Shown here: one piece after another, positions 11,006 through 64,000 of the stretch
Layout: every line of letters starts with the position of its first letter
How positions within the stretch are numbered: the first letter of the stretch is position 1
DNA from: Desulforegula conservatrix Mb1Pa
GTDB taxonomy: Bacteria; Desulfobacterota; Desulfobacteria; Desulfobacterales; Desulforegulaceae
Assembly (NCBI RefSeq): GCF_000426225.1
Contig: NZ_AUEY01000002.1
Location: 124,001-188,000, forward strand
Length of the DNA stretch: 64,000 bases
Direction: 5' to 3'
The notes under the pieces: model-generated
Told to the model about the DNA's origin: nothing
What the model saw: only the letters and a program-made list of their open reading frames with translations
Database searches by the model: none
Position numbers and translations under genes: made by a program

Positions 11006-12154
11006 ATGGCATTCATTTCTTCAGGATTTAATCCGGATAAGCCTTTGGAGAACCGCATCACTGACATCGGTCCAAGGGATTTCAACGAATTTTACCCTCC
11101 AGTTATTGCAAGAAACAAGGGTAAATGGCTTTATCATGAAATCATTGAGCCAGGCGTTCTGGTTCATGTTTCTGAAACAGGCGAAGAAGTATATACAGTT
11201 CGTGTTGGTGCTGCGCGCCTTATGAGCGGTACCCTCATTCGTGAAATATGCGATATAGCTGACAAGCATTGTGATGGCCACCTTCGTTTCACCACAAGAA
11301 ACAACATAGAGTTCATGGTTGATTCCAAGGACAAGGTTGCTCCTCTTAAGGCTGATCTTGCAAGCCGCAAGTTTCCTGGCGGATCTTTCAAGTTCCCAAT
11401 CGGTGGGACTGGCTGCGGCGTTACCAACATAGTTCATACCCAGGGCTGGCTCCACTGCCATACTCCTGCGTCTGACGCATCTGGTACCGTTAAGGCAACA
11501 ATGGACGTTCTTTTCAAGGACTTCCAGGATATGAGACTTCCTGCACAGCTTCGTGTTTCTATGGCTTGCTGCCTTAACATGTGCGGTGCTGTTCATTGTT
11601 CTGATATCGCTATCCTTGGCTATCATCGTAAGCCGCCAAAGATGGACCATGAGTATCTTGACAAGCTTTGTGAAATTCCTTTGGCGATTGCTGCATGTCC
11701 AACAGCAGCCATCAAGCCTAAGAAGATCACCCTTGATAGCGGTGCCATTGTTAACTCGATAGATGTTAACCAGGACAGATGTATGTACTGCGGTAACTGC
11801 TACACCATGTGTCCTTCTCTTCCGCTTGCGGATACCGAAGGTGACGGTATAGTTCTTATGGCTGGTGGTAAGGTTTCTAACCGTATCTCAGCTCCTAAGT
11901 TCTCCAAGGTTGTTGTTGCTTTCATTGAAAACGACATGCCTCGCTGGCCAAAAATGACCCAGACCATATCACGTATGGTTGAAGCATATGCAAGCGGCGC
12001 ACGTAAGTATGAGCGTTTCGGTGACTGGGCAGAGCGTATTGGCTGGGAGCGTTTCTTCGAAAAATGCGAAATCGAATTTACTCACCATCTGATTGACGAT
12101 TTCCGTGATCACGCTTACCACACCTGGCGTCAAACCACACAGTTCAAGTTCTAA
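11006..12154 (+). CDS. dsrB: dissimilatory sulfite reductase beta subunit DsrB
   Basis: This is the beta subunit of the alpha2beta2 sulfite reductase, carrying the catalytically competent siroheme in characterised enzymes. Landmarks are [20 protein letters not shown], the cysteine cluster [11 protein letters not shown] (residues 188-198) and the ferredoxin motif [20 protein letters not shown]. It is full length at 382 residues. AAGGAGGGAAG is an excellent ribosome-binding site. A stable hairpin separates it from dsrD. Confidence 0.98.
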
Positions 12155-60329: not shown

Positions 60330-60630
60330 TCAAAACTCTGAAGGGATTTCCTCAATATTCACAGCAATTTTTAACATACTCGAAACACCGTATTTGCAAA
60401 GTAGAAACATTGTTTTTTTAATGCACTCTTCCAGTCCTTTTACATCCCTTGCCTCACAAACATCAATGCTGCATTTGCAGTAGATTTCCAGATGGGCAAG
60501 GGTTGATTTTCCTGATCCTGAAAGCCCTGTAAGCCATATTACAGGCTTTAGTGACCATTTTTATGTTTCTCATGCTTCGGGAAACAAGGGATCTGTGCCA
60601 TGAAACATTTTCAGACTGAAAGGATTCCAT
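60330..60630 (-). pseudogene. cysC: broken adenylylsulfate (APS) kinase gene
   Basis: Reading leftward from ATG 60630, the frame gives MESFQSENVSWHRSLVSRSM, matching the N-terminus of APS kinase (ENxxWH...V.R..R). A frameshift follows after MVTK. The next frame encodes KPVIWLTGLSGSGKSTLA, the diagnostic Walker A of CysC. It then jumps directly to HLEIYCKCSIDVCEARDVKG, which in intact enzymes lies some 75-85 residues later. The remainder, to a TGA at 60330-60332, is unrecognisable. So the gene has both a frameshift and an internal deletion. APS kinase makes PAPS, the donor for sulfotransferases; a sulfotransferase gene lies 600 bases away. Confidence 0.85.
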
Positions 60631-61253
60631 TTACTATTTTTTTTCTTGATGTGGCGGTCAGGATGTCAAATGCCATTCTGATAGCATGGTTACGTCAAGA
60701 AAACCATAGGCCATGATGACGAGCCATTGTCAAGGCTCACATGCTCCGGCACCTGCAAAGGAAAACAAAAGCAGGCCCAGGACAAACAACACAGCAATCA
60801 GCTAACACCAAAATCCAAATACAAAGTTACAAACATTTTTTTAAACAGCAACCATTGTTATCACAACTTATTGCATGAAATAAAAAAATATAGTATTTGC
60901 TAAATATTAGGCTATTTTTCAGGTCAATTATGTTTTTATATAGGATTCTGGAGCATCGGATGACAGACATCGATAATAAACCCGTCAAGAAAAATCCAAG
61001 CATTACTTTTATAATATGGATAATGTTCATGTTTGGAAGTTGATTGCAGCAGAAAAGACGAGTTCGTCCAGATGGTGGATTCTCTTGATAGGAAATCCGG
61101 TATTGATGCCAATCTGGTTATCGATTTCAGTGAGAACATCGCCTTTGGCAGCTCAGGCTCCATTATCCTGCACAAGGTTTTCAAATAATCATAGCGATGT
61201 AATGGCAATTTTATATATTTGAATTTTTAACTTTAATTATCCTTGAGCTTGCC
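60631..61253. other. intergenic decay zone between cysC remnant and sulfotransferase
   Basis: No intact gene is seen. A 28-codon frame from ATG 60960 (MTDIDNKPVKKNPSITFIIW and a few more residues) looks like the start of a membrane protein. It is followed in another frame by the remnant at 61024-61188. The rest is AT-rich. Confidence 0.45.
61024..61188 (+). pseudogene. C-terminal coding remnant of unknown gene
   Basis: After a stop at 61021-61023, an open stretch of 54 codons encodes EVDCSRKDEFVQMVDSLDRK, SGIDANLVIDFSENIAFGSS and GSIILHKVFK before TAA. There is no start codon or ribosome-binding site at its left end, but the composition is protein-like. I do not recognise the family. It may be joined by a frameshift to the short frame beginning at 60960. 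Confidence 0.45.
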
Positions 61254-62087
61254 ATGACAGAAAAAAAATATCATTTCATAGCAGGTTTACCGAGATCTGG
61301 TTCAACCCTGCTCTCCGCCCTGCTTAAACAGAACCCTCGTTTCAATGCAAACATCAGCAGTCCCGTTGCCCCCTTGGCCTCTGCTATGATCAAGCTGGTA
61401 AGCGCGGGCACGGAAATATCCCTTTCCCTCAATGAAAATCAGAAGCGTAATCTGCTGAAATCTATTTTCAATGCTTACTATAGTGAACCCTGTGCCGCTG
61501 AAGTGCTTTTTGATACCAACCGAGCGTGGTGTTCCAAAATGGCATTGCTGGACCAGCTCTTCCCGGAAGCGAAAGTGATTGCTTGCGTTCGTGATATCCC
61601 ATGGATCATGGACAGTATTGAACGCCTGCTTCTGAAAAATCCTTTTGAAAACACGAAGCTTTTTTCCAGCGAATCGGAACGATCCACTGTTTACAGCCGG
61701 ATGGCGACTCTGGCCAAACACGATCGTTTGATCGGATTTCCTTGGGCCGCGCTCAAGGAGGCATATTACGGAGCGTTCTCGCACAAATTGCTTCTTGTCG
61801 AATACGATCTGCTTGTGCGATCCCCGGAAAAGGTTCTTAAGCTGATTTATCAGTTTACCGAAGAACCGTGGTTCGATGGCCACGATTTTGAAAATGTTGA
61901 CTTCGAAGCACCGGAGTTTGACGAAGCTTTAGGGCTGGCTGGCCTGCATACGGTCCGAAAAAAAGTAGAGCCCATTGAAAGAGAACCAATATTGCCACCA
62001 GATATTTTTGAAAAATATATCAATATGGCTTTCTGGAGAAACGACGAGCGAAGTCGCTCCAGCGTCATCAAACCAACATCGAAATAA
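61254..62087 (+). CDS. PAPS-dependent sulfotransferase family protein
   Basis: The 277-residue protein has the 5'-phosphosulfate-binding loop HFIAGLPRSGSTLLSALLKQ. The second PAPS (3'-phosphate) region is VIACVRDIPWIMDSIERLLL, and LLLVEYDLLVRSPEKVLKLI follows. It belongs to the soluble bacterial sulfotransferase group distantly similar to tyrosylprotein sulfotransferases. No signal peptide is present, so it acts in the cytoplasm. The gene lies 29 bases upstream of a large surface-protein gene with a strong ribosome-binding site, so the two are probably co-transcribed. Base composition is more GC-rich than the core genes. Confidence 0.88.
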   Translation: MTEKKYHFIAGLPRSGSTLLSALLKQNPRFNANISSPVAPLASAMIKLVSAGTEISLSLNENQKRNLLKSIFNAYYSEPCAAEVLFDTNRAWCSKMALLDQLFPEAKVIACVRDIPWIMDSIERLLLKNPFENTKLFSSESERSTVYSRMATLAKHDRLIGFPWAALKEAYYGAFSHKLLLVEYDLLVRSPEKVLKLIYQFTEEPWFDGHDFENVDFEAPEFDEALGLAGLHTVRKKVEPIEREPILPPDIFEKYINMAFWRNDERSRSSVIKPTSK

Positions 62088-62116
62088 ATGTACTTTGGGA
62101 TTAAACGGAGGACGAT

Positions 62117-64000
62117 ATGGCATTGACATACAATTTAAACACTACTCCACTTTGGGATTTCACAAGTACTACCGACAACTCGGGAGCGAGCACAGCGAGT
62201 TTCGGAGACATCGATGGAGATGGTGACCTGGACCTCTTTGTAGGTGTTGAACGCGCTGGAGGTTCTCAAGGCAGTATGGTTTTCAAGAACGATGGGAGCG
62301 GAAATTTCACCAAGACGCAGACATTTTCAGCAATGCGAGTCGTCAGGTCTTTTCTGGTCAACATCGACGGTGATGCGGATTTGGAACTCATCACACGGTC
62401 CCTGGATGCGCCGATCTCCATTTTCGAAAACAATGGAAGCGGAACATTTTCACTCGCTTCGACTACATCAGCAAACGTAAATGATGTGGCAGTTGGCGAC
62501 CTGGATGGAGATGGCGATGTGGATATGTTCATCGCGCTCAAAAATGGTAACTATCAGGTCTACAAAAACAACGGAACAGGAACCTTCACAATCTCATCAA
62601 CGCCTGCGAGCAGTTCAACCCCCCTGGCTGTTGCCCTTGCCGACCTCGACAAGGACGGAGACCTTGATGTCGTCTCCTACGAGGAAAACAACGGACGCAT
62701 TCTGCTGAATAACGGCAGCGGAGCGTTCAGTTCAGGCTCCACGTTTGGCGATGTCTATGGCAGCACAGCTATCTCAGCAGACGTAACAGGCGATGGATAC
62801 GCAGATATTCTCACCAATGCATTAGGCTCTGGCAACGGTTTGAACCTCTACCAGAACAATGGTTCCGGCGGATTAGGTACGCTCATACAAAATTTTTCAG
62901 GAGGCGCTCCCTACAGATTTGCAGATGTCGATTCCGACGGTGATCTGGATGGGTTTTCAGGAGATTTATATCTAAACAATGGTTCCGGGACATTAACCGC
63001 TGCTGGCAAAACTTTTCAGGATCCTACGTTTCTTCAATATAGTGTCCCCGTCGATGGGACTGTTCTGGGAGCAGGTGACGTGGACGGAGACGGCGACAAA
63101 GACCTTGTGGTCGCTTTTTACGCTAGTGAAATGTTCCCAGCATACTCATACTCAAGTCGGGTCTCCGTTTTCATCAACAACTCGGCCCCTCCGGCCAATG
63201 CGGATGGAACACTCACCGCAGGAACAATGGTCACAGAACCGGTTTCCCTCGCCACGACGATTGACACTGCCGGAGAGGCCATTGACGTCTTCGACTTCAA
63301 ACTGACTGACGGAGGAACCAGCGACGGTTTGGCTCTTGGAGTATCCCAACTGGTGCTGCACACTTCCGGCACCGGCGACTTCAGCAAAGTCGTTTGGCGA
63401 TTGAATGGACCAGACGCAACCAATGTCGCCGGGACATACAATAATGCCGCACATACCCTGACCTTCTCAGGTCTCACTCTCTCAGTCGCCAATGGCGGCA
63501 ACGAAACATACAGAGTCAACGCCTATTATTCTAACAACACGTCCTTAACAGAAGGTCAGACATATATATTATCAATCGATGGAGACACGGACGTCACTGT
63601 TTCGGCAGGCGGAACAACCATGGCCGCTGGACAATCGGCCATTACAAATAGTACCGGAAGTACCGTTAATGTTGTTGCAACCCAGCTCGCTGTCGTTACT
63701 CAGCCAGCAGGCAGCACCAGCGGCAGCCCTTTGACAACCCAGATGGTCGTTAAGGCTGTGGATGCTTTTGGGAATTTGGACATCGGCTTCACTGGCAATG
63801 TAACGCTCTCTGAAAACGATCCTGGCACTCTATCCGGGACGCTTACTGTGGCTGCGGTGGGCGGTATCGCAACTTTTACCGACGTAACCTACACAACAAA
63901 TACCAATGGTGAAATCTTTCAGCTTGACGCCTCGGCCACCGGTCTGACTGGTGTTACCTCGGCGAATGTAACGACGCTCGTCCTCAATATCACGCCTACT
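62117..64000 (+). CDS. large FG-GAP/VCBS-repeat surface protein, N-terminal 628 residues (runs off window)
   Basis: The frame opens at ATG 62117 (ribosome-binding site GGAGG) and stays open to the window end. There is no classical signal peptide, which is usual for type I secreted giant proteins. Residues about 20-335 are FG-GAP/VCBS repeats with Ca-binding loops (FGDIDGDGDLDLFVG, VGDLDGDGDVDMFIA, LADLDKDGDLDVVSY, AGDVDGDGDKDLVVA), predicting a beta-propeller. From about 345 come beta-sandwich domains rich in Thr, Gly and Asn, including a filamin/Ig-like unit (TQLAVVTQPAGSTSGSPLTT, FTGNVTLSENDPGTLSGTLT). The likely role is an adhesin or secreted matrix protein. The DNA is clearly more GC-rich than elsewhere. 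Confidence 0.88.
   Translation, partial: MALTYNLNTTPLWDFTSTTDNSGASTASFGDIDGDGDLDLFVGVERAGGSQGSMVFKNDGSGNFTKTQTFSAMRVVRSFLVNIDGDADLELITRSLDAPISIFENNGSGTFSLASTTSANVNDVAVGDLDGDGDVDMFIALKNGNYQVYKNNGTGTFTISSTPASSSTPLAVALADLDKDGDLDVVSYEENNGRILLNNGSGAFSSGSTFGDVYGSTAISADVTGDGYADILTNALGSGNGLNLYQNNGSGGLGTLIQNFSGGAPYRFADVDSDGDLDGFSGDLYLNNGSGTLTAAGKTFQDPTFLQYSVPVDGTVLGAGDVDGDGDKDLVVAFYASEMFPAYSYSSRVSVFINNSAPPANADGTLTAGTMVTEPVSLATTIDTAGEAIDVFDFKLTDGGTSDGLALGVSQLVLHTSGTGDFSKVVWRLNGPDATNVAGTYNNAAHTLTFSGLTLSVANGGNETYRVNAYYSNNTSLTEGQTYILSIDGDTDVTVSAGGTTMAAGQSAITNSTGSTVNVVATQLAVVTQPAGSTSGSPLTTQMVVKAVDAFGNLDIGFTGNVTLSENDPGTLSGTLTVAAVGGIATFTDVTYTTNTNGEIFQLDASATGLTGVTSANVTTLVLNITPT

Follow-up and report, generated by a model that had tools for sequence, protein, structure and literature searches.

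Among the open-licence papers that we found, RaxST and RaxX are the only case of bacterial protein-tyrosine sulfation with a known substrate. RaxST is reported to sulfate protein tyrosine, and it is part of the RaxX-RaxST-RaxA-RaxB system of Xanthomonas, in which PAPS is provided via RaxP and RaxQ (PMC6637879, PMC4216712). Two residues of its PAPS motifs, Arg-11 and Ser-118, are essential, and for its homologues in other bacteria a 2019 paper presumed substrates different from RaxX (PMC6637879). Eukaryotic tyrosylprotein sulfotransferases (TPSTs) work in the Golgi (PMC9372746).

Here we analyzed a window of 64,000 nucleotides from the genome of Desulforegula conservatrix Mb1Pa, at the end of which a RaxST-type sulfotransferase gene is followed by the start of a gene for a giant surface protein. 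This arrangement resembles the Rax system in the homology of the sulfotransferase, in the position of its gene beside a likely secreted substrate, in the type I secretion system (T1SS) encoded at a second copy of the pair on contig C20 of the same genome, and in the requirement for PAPS genes. It differs in that RaxX is a peptide of 60 residues whereas the partner here is a giant adhesin, and in that APS kinase is encoded at the locus here whereas it is a housekeeping function in Rax. A further difference is found in the HlyB of the C20 copy, in which the C39-like domain is without the catalytic Cys (TGLVCL versus ECGLAT in RaxB), and thus no leader cleavage is expected for that system.

A second type of comparison is provided by giant adhesins. 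The HMW1A adhesin is glycosylated in the cytosol by HMW1C ahead of two-partner secretion. The arrangement that we propose follows the same logic, in which a giant adhesin is modified in the cytosol, prior to export, by the product of a neighboring gene, and one locus in Silvimonas carries both an HMW1C relative and a sulfotransferase; the differences are that the enzyme here is a sulfotransferase and that the export route varies. The LapA/RTX-type adhesins of T1SS are similar in being giant repetitive Ig/cadherin proteins with no apparent signal peptide, and the C20 copy is accompanied by HlyB-HlyD-TolC, but among the open-licence papers found no sulfotransferase partner is described for adhesins of this type. 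Likewise, we found no literature on the pairing of a sulfotransferase with a giant protein among open-licence papers.

We consider it rather likely that a cytosolic, PAPS-dependent enzyme of the RaxST type sulfates the adjacent giant surface protein before export. PAPS would come from the APS kinase of the locus, the cytosolic enzyme would sulfate the giant while this is still in the cytoplasm, and the sulfated giant would then be exported, with a type I secretion system as the most likely route in this organism.

The sulfotransferase-giant pairs of the Desulforegula genome

The window sulfotransferase (61254..62087, plus strand) is a RaxST-type protein of 277 aa that matches Sulfotransfer_3 of Pfam (E 1e-17), and its PAPS motifs are GLPRSGST, which contains R14, and the region of S121. 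It is separated from the giant ORF by a spacer of 29 nt (62088..62116, plus strand) with the ribosome-binding site GGAGG approximately 5 nt before the ATG. The ORF limits (61254-62087 and 62117 onward) agree with the distance of 29 bases reported in the first-pass annotation, and the two genes are probably carried on one transcript, judging from the sequence. The giant ORF (62117..64000 and beyond the window end, plus strand) starts with FG-GAP repeats (FG-GAP_3 of Pfam, E 1.4e-38), which are followed by Ig-like modules and, further along, by repeats of approximately 118 aa, a cadherin domain and a choice-of-anchor U domain; inspection by eye gave no apparent signal peptide. Downstream extension, which had been proposed for finding the full protein and type I secretion genes, lengthened the giant to at least 2213 aa, but the ORF is still open at the end of contig C2, and on this available side, where the giant ends with the contig, there are no T1SS genes next to the window pair.

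The repeat of approximately 118 aa is found in tandem at L004:5802-7571 and in Burkholderiales partners. It has no match in Pfam or NCBIfam, and the window giant shares approximately 50% identity in it with adhesins from another phylum. It was considered as an obligatory substrate and rejected, since it is also present in a giant (L180) that has no sulfotransferase across the 19.5 kb available. The same is true for DUF4347 as a universal substrate domain, which is absent from the window giant, from the Nostoc partner, and from the two-partner secretion (TPS) and autotransporter partners.

The first-pass annotation had regarded both genes as compositionally foreign, which our data bear out. The GC content is 46% for the enzyme gene and 51% for the giant gene up to the contig end, as compared with 43% ± 3% for the window (834-bp blocks), and of 297 genomes sampled from the host phylum only two have the enzyme, from which it is likely that the pair was acquired horizontally. 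In our trees, which were built rapidly and contain long branches and several unresolved forks, the clade of the enzyme consists mainly of members from other phyla.

Contig C20 carries a second sulfotransferase that is 54% identical to the window enzyme. Its gene overlaps by 4 nt that of an adhesin of 1888 aa (DUF4347, Big_5, cadherin, and choice-of-anchor U), the C-terminal region of which is 62% identical to the window giant, and genes for TolC, HlyB, and HlyD come after the pair. A profile scan of the whole genome identified exactly two Sulfotransfer_3 genes, each of them in such a pair. The window and C20 enzymes are not sisters in the trees, and thus the pair may have entered this genome twice.

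The single APS kinase gene (cysC) of the genome is located on a small contig, C102 (L191:6195-6797). The end of this contig codes for the C-terminal fragment of a giant (319 aa), which shares 58% identity with the corresponding region of the C20 adhesin, and the window giant stops approximately 67 residues (about 200 bp) short of the matching point of this fragment. The simplest reading is that the window giant and the C102 fragment are probably one gene split by an assembly gap; contigs C2 and C102 have no exact sequence overlap, so that we infer the join from homology. Behind the giant end on C102 lie the convergent cysC, then a TIGR03032/DUF4915 gene (L191, 4752-5969, minus strand), and then a third giant with DUF4347 (L191, 3-4739, minus strand; 1579 aa, open). 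The TIGR03032/DUF4915 gene was rejected as a component of the system, since C102 is the only one of the sulfotransferase loci searched that has it.

Directly upstream of the window sulfotransferase there is a decayed cysC (60436..60677, minus strand) with a frameshift and an internal deletion, which shares 84% DNA identity with the intact gene of C102. This pseudogene, together with the end of the available sequence inside the giant gene, would be expected if the window pair were a dead remnant, i.e., a decaying locus with a truncated giant gene. Such a reading is hardly credible, because both ORFs are open over their available length, the enzyme keeps its invariant residues, an intact cysC is still in the genome, and the break falls at a contig end within repeated C-terminal modules, as an assembly gap predicts.

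Kinship of the enzyme with RaxST and TPSTs

The window enzyme shares 41% identity with RaxST across an alignment of 256 aa, and the C20 copy 45%. R14 and S121 are invariant across 46 relatives, and their spacing of 107 is the same as in RaxST. One locus from Xanthomonadales (L148) was recognized as a raxX-raxST-raxA-raxB cluster: the four residues published for RaxST, Arg11, His50, Ser118, and Arg129 (PMC6637879), are present in its sulfotransferase, the upstream ORF ends in a RaxX-like sequence, and HlyD and a C39-type ABC transporter are encoded downstream. This was the only RaxX-like ORF among the loci examined, and the DYPPPGA pattern gave no match across the loci. The window enzyme fits the set of RaxST homologues for which substrates other than RaxX are presumed.

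The distant similarity to tyrosylprotein sulfotransferases that the first-pass annotation had pointed out is confirmed by several searches. TPST1 and TPST2 are the best phmmer matches of the window enzyme (E 2.8e-7), and TPSTs are also its best PDB matches by sequence (profile, E 1.1e-10), at an identity of approximately 20–23%. An AlphaFold2 model, for which rows from annotated plasmid and phage records were left out of the alignment, reached a mean pLDDT of 94, and its 13 best PDB structure matches are all tyrosylprotein sulfotransferases (E 5.6e-10), with glycan sulfotransferases ranking below them; the TM score is only approximately 0.56, so that the match supports the TPST class and not a particular substrate. 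In the sequence alignment, the GEET segment of TPSTs with the catalytic Glu is aligned with SSPV of the window enzyme, and the invariant E54 may replace this Glu. The sole NCBIfam model that matches all 46 members is NoeE (NF052394), of which the window enzyme was rejected as a member, its score being 23 bits as against a cut-off of 500.

Recurrence of the pair, PAPS genes and export routes

Relatives were obtained as 74 loci from a collection of 84,980 species using search patterns built from the enzyme only, and the locus search was thus blind to neighboring genes. A giant ORF lies directly downstream in 38 of the 61 non-mycobacterial loci with room downstream, a set that includes loci added from other searches, whereas the frequency is 1.9% at 11,171 positions picked at random from the same loci. 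A giant is defined here as an ORF on the strand of the enzyme that has 1000 aa or more, or reaches the contig end, and lies within 900 nt past the enzyme end, and the counts of pairing are approximate because ORF calling is crude in GC-rich DNA. The co-occurrence across genomes, for which a survey had been suggested at first pass, is therefore found. Several further non-mycobacterial loci have RTX proteins of 500–1000 aa. Comparable results came from two taxonomic draws. A draw from Burkholderiales gave seven enzyme-bearing genomes, including the one at the center of the draw, and five of them have an adjacent DUF4347 giant or a large T1SS-linked protein, and in a Xanthomonadales sample, partly picked to include RaxST candidates, a giant adjoins the enzyme in 17 of 39 loci. 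The mycobacterial members (21 loci) are mostly without a giant partner.

A subclade of Xanthomonadaceae (L151, L153, L155, and L175; also L154, L156, L171, and L174) has no giant, and the enzyme is found there with a TonB receptor-like protein, a permease, a GH2 enzyme, and a LacI regulator; in four loci of this subclade a bifunctional ATP-sulfurylase/APS kinase is present as well. The substrate of the subclade may be different, which warns against a single function for the whole family. Distant sulfotransferase relatives, approximately 23–33% identical, are also encoded in Synechococcus phages (L091:3512-4342 and other marine phage records).

In 18 of 106 loci, an APS kinase gene on the strand of the enzyme lies no more than 1.5 kb away; we estimate that chance placement of roughly one such gene in a genome of 5 Mb would give well under 1%. 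Enzyme, APS kinase, and exporter are joined in one operon in L089 and in L087. The latter (L087:3-14764, from genome G208 of the host phylum) has genes for ShlB, the sulfotransferase, a TPS giant, and CysD-like, TauE-like, and CysC-containing proteins on one strand. L104:8176-9993 and L089:6293-15336 are T1SS operons in which proteins with an M10 peptidase domain go together with a single sulfotransferase or two in tandem, and the APS kinase is in L089. In Silvimonas (L059:2-11382), genes for an FHA-like giant, an HMW1C-type glycosyltransferase, the sulfotransferase, and APS kinase are found in a row, and the adhesin of this locus possibly receives two cytosolic modifications.

In the first-pass hypothesis the partner is exported by type I secretion. 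The T1SS genes at the C20 pair are in line with this for the present genome, and T1SS partners are also found in Caballeronia and in one Burkholderiales genome, which has two tandem sulfotransferases ahead of HlyB and HlyD. As a general statement this was too narrow, since the partner is an autotransporter (T5aSS) in Azoarcus, a two-partner secretion protein (T5bSS) in another genome of the host phylum, where ShlB comes first and is followed by the enzyme and the TPS giant, and a protein with a T9SS tail in Pedobacter.

It could be argued that the substrate is a small molecule or an unlinked protein, and that the two genes simply travel together as a mobile cassette for surface adaptation. The breadth of the Sulfotransfer_3 family, the horizontal transfer of the pair, the relatives in marine phages, and the lack of a giant partner in many mycobacterial and some other members would all be in accordance with such a cassette. 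We nevertheless regard it as quite improbable, because the type of partner varies (DUF4347 protein, TPS protein, autotransporter, M10 peptidase, and T9SS protein) while the pairing and the linkage to APS kinase stay, and because overlaps of 4 nt and operons across several phyla are not predicted by hitch-hiking.

From the pairing, its recurrence, the linkage to PAPS and export genes, the RaxST homology, and the predicted TPST-like fold, we infer that the partner is the substrate and that the transfer takes place before export. A more general model, which we put forward only tentatively and hold to be somewhat short of an even chance, is that of a widespread and horizontally moving system in which giants are sulfated on tyrosine in the cytosol before export by any exporter (T1SS, T5aSS, T5bSS, or T9SS), with its own PAPS supply, and of which RaxST-RaxX would be a specialized offshoot.

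The acceptor and the meaning of the pair

The first-pass annotation took Tyr-rich loops of the giant, such as AFYASEMFPAYSYSSR (63113..63160, plus strand), as a clue to sulfation. This part of the claim has to be given up, as the Tyr content of the loop is ordinary: at least three Tyr in 16 residues occur in 68% of shuffles of its segment. TPSTs favor acidic sites, but acidic Tyr sites, defined as Tyr with at least three acidic and no basic neighbors, are depleted in the partners, with 40 in 58 partners versus 75 ± 8 in shuffles. The acidic-Tyr consensus was thus rejected as a substrate signature, being rarer than chance, and no shared acceptor motif was found in the partners.

The same depletion is one of the points in favor of a carbohydrate substrate, either a glycan on the giant or a surface polysaccharide bound by the adhesin. 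The glycosyltransferase between giant and sulfotransferase in Silvimonas, the link of the Xanthomonadaceae subclade to a GH2 enzyme and a LacI regulator, and the fact that the sole NCBIfam match, although far under the cut-off, is a nodulation-factor sulfotransferase (NoeE) point in the same direction. We still consider a carbohydrate unlikely as the substrate, because HMW1C relatives are found at just one of the loci examined, the closest characterized relative, RaxST, is a protein-tyrosine sulfotransferase, and TPSTs outscore glycan sulfotransferases in the structure search. A proven glycan or small-molecule substrate of the enzyme family, which would have spoken against the original proposal, was not found, although one subclade has a glycoside-hydrolase (GH2) context.

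If sulfation of the partner protein is right, tyrosine is the most likely acceptor, since the characterized relative RaxST sulfates tyrosine; we give this a little better than an even chance by analogy, and Ser/Thr or a glycan on the protein could also serve. The proposal of the first-pass annotation that the enzyme is coupled to the exported giant is supported in its main part by the conserved pair, the operons with APS kinase and exporter, and the kinship with RaxST, whereas the ordinary loop and the depleted acidic Tyr sites do not support it. The evidence for this coupling is now much stronger than it was at first pass, and RaxST-type sulfation with giant surface proteins as substrates is likely. 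Speculatively, sulfation may play a part in adhesion or biofilm.

The present genome offers a clean case, having two enzymes that each adjoin a giant and one APS kinase at the locus, and other uses of PAPS would be few if the organism reduces sulfate for energy. For many RaxST homologues the adjacent giant is now a concrete candidate substrate. The recurrence of the pair in many bacteria, beside genes for PAPS production, points to a sulfation of bacterial surface proteins that is commoner than known. If this is true, sulfation would join glycosylation as a modification that bacterial adhesins receive before export, with a possible bearing on biofilm and host attachment, and RaxST would gain an evolutionary background.
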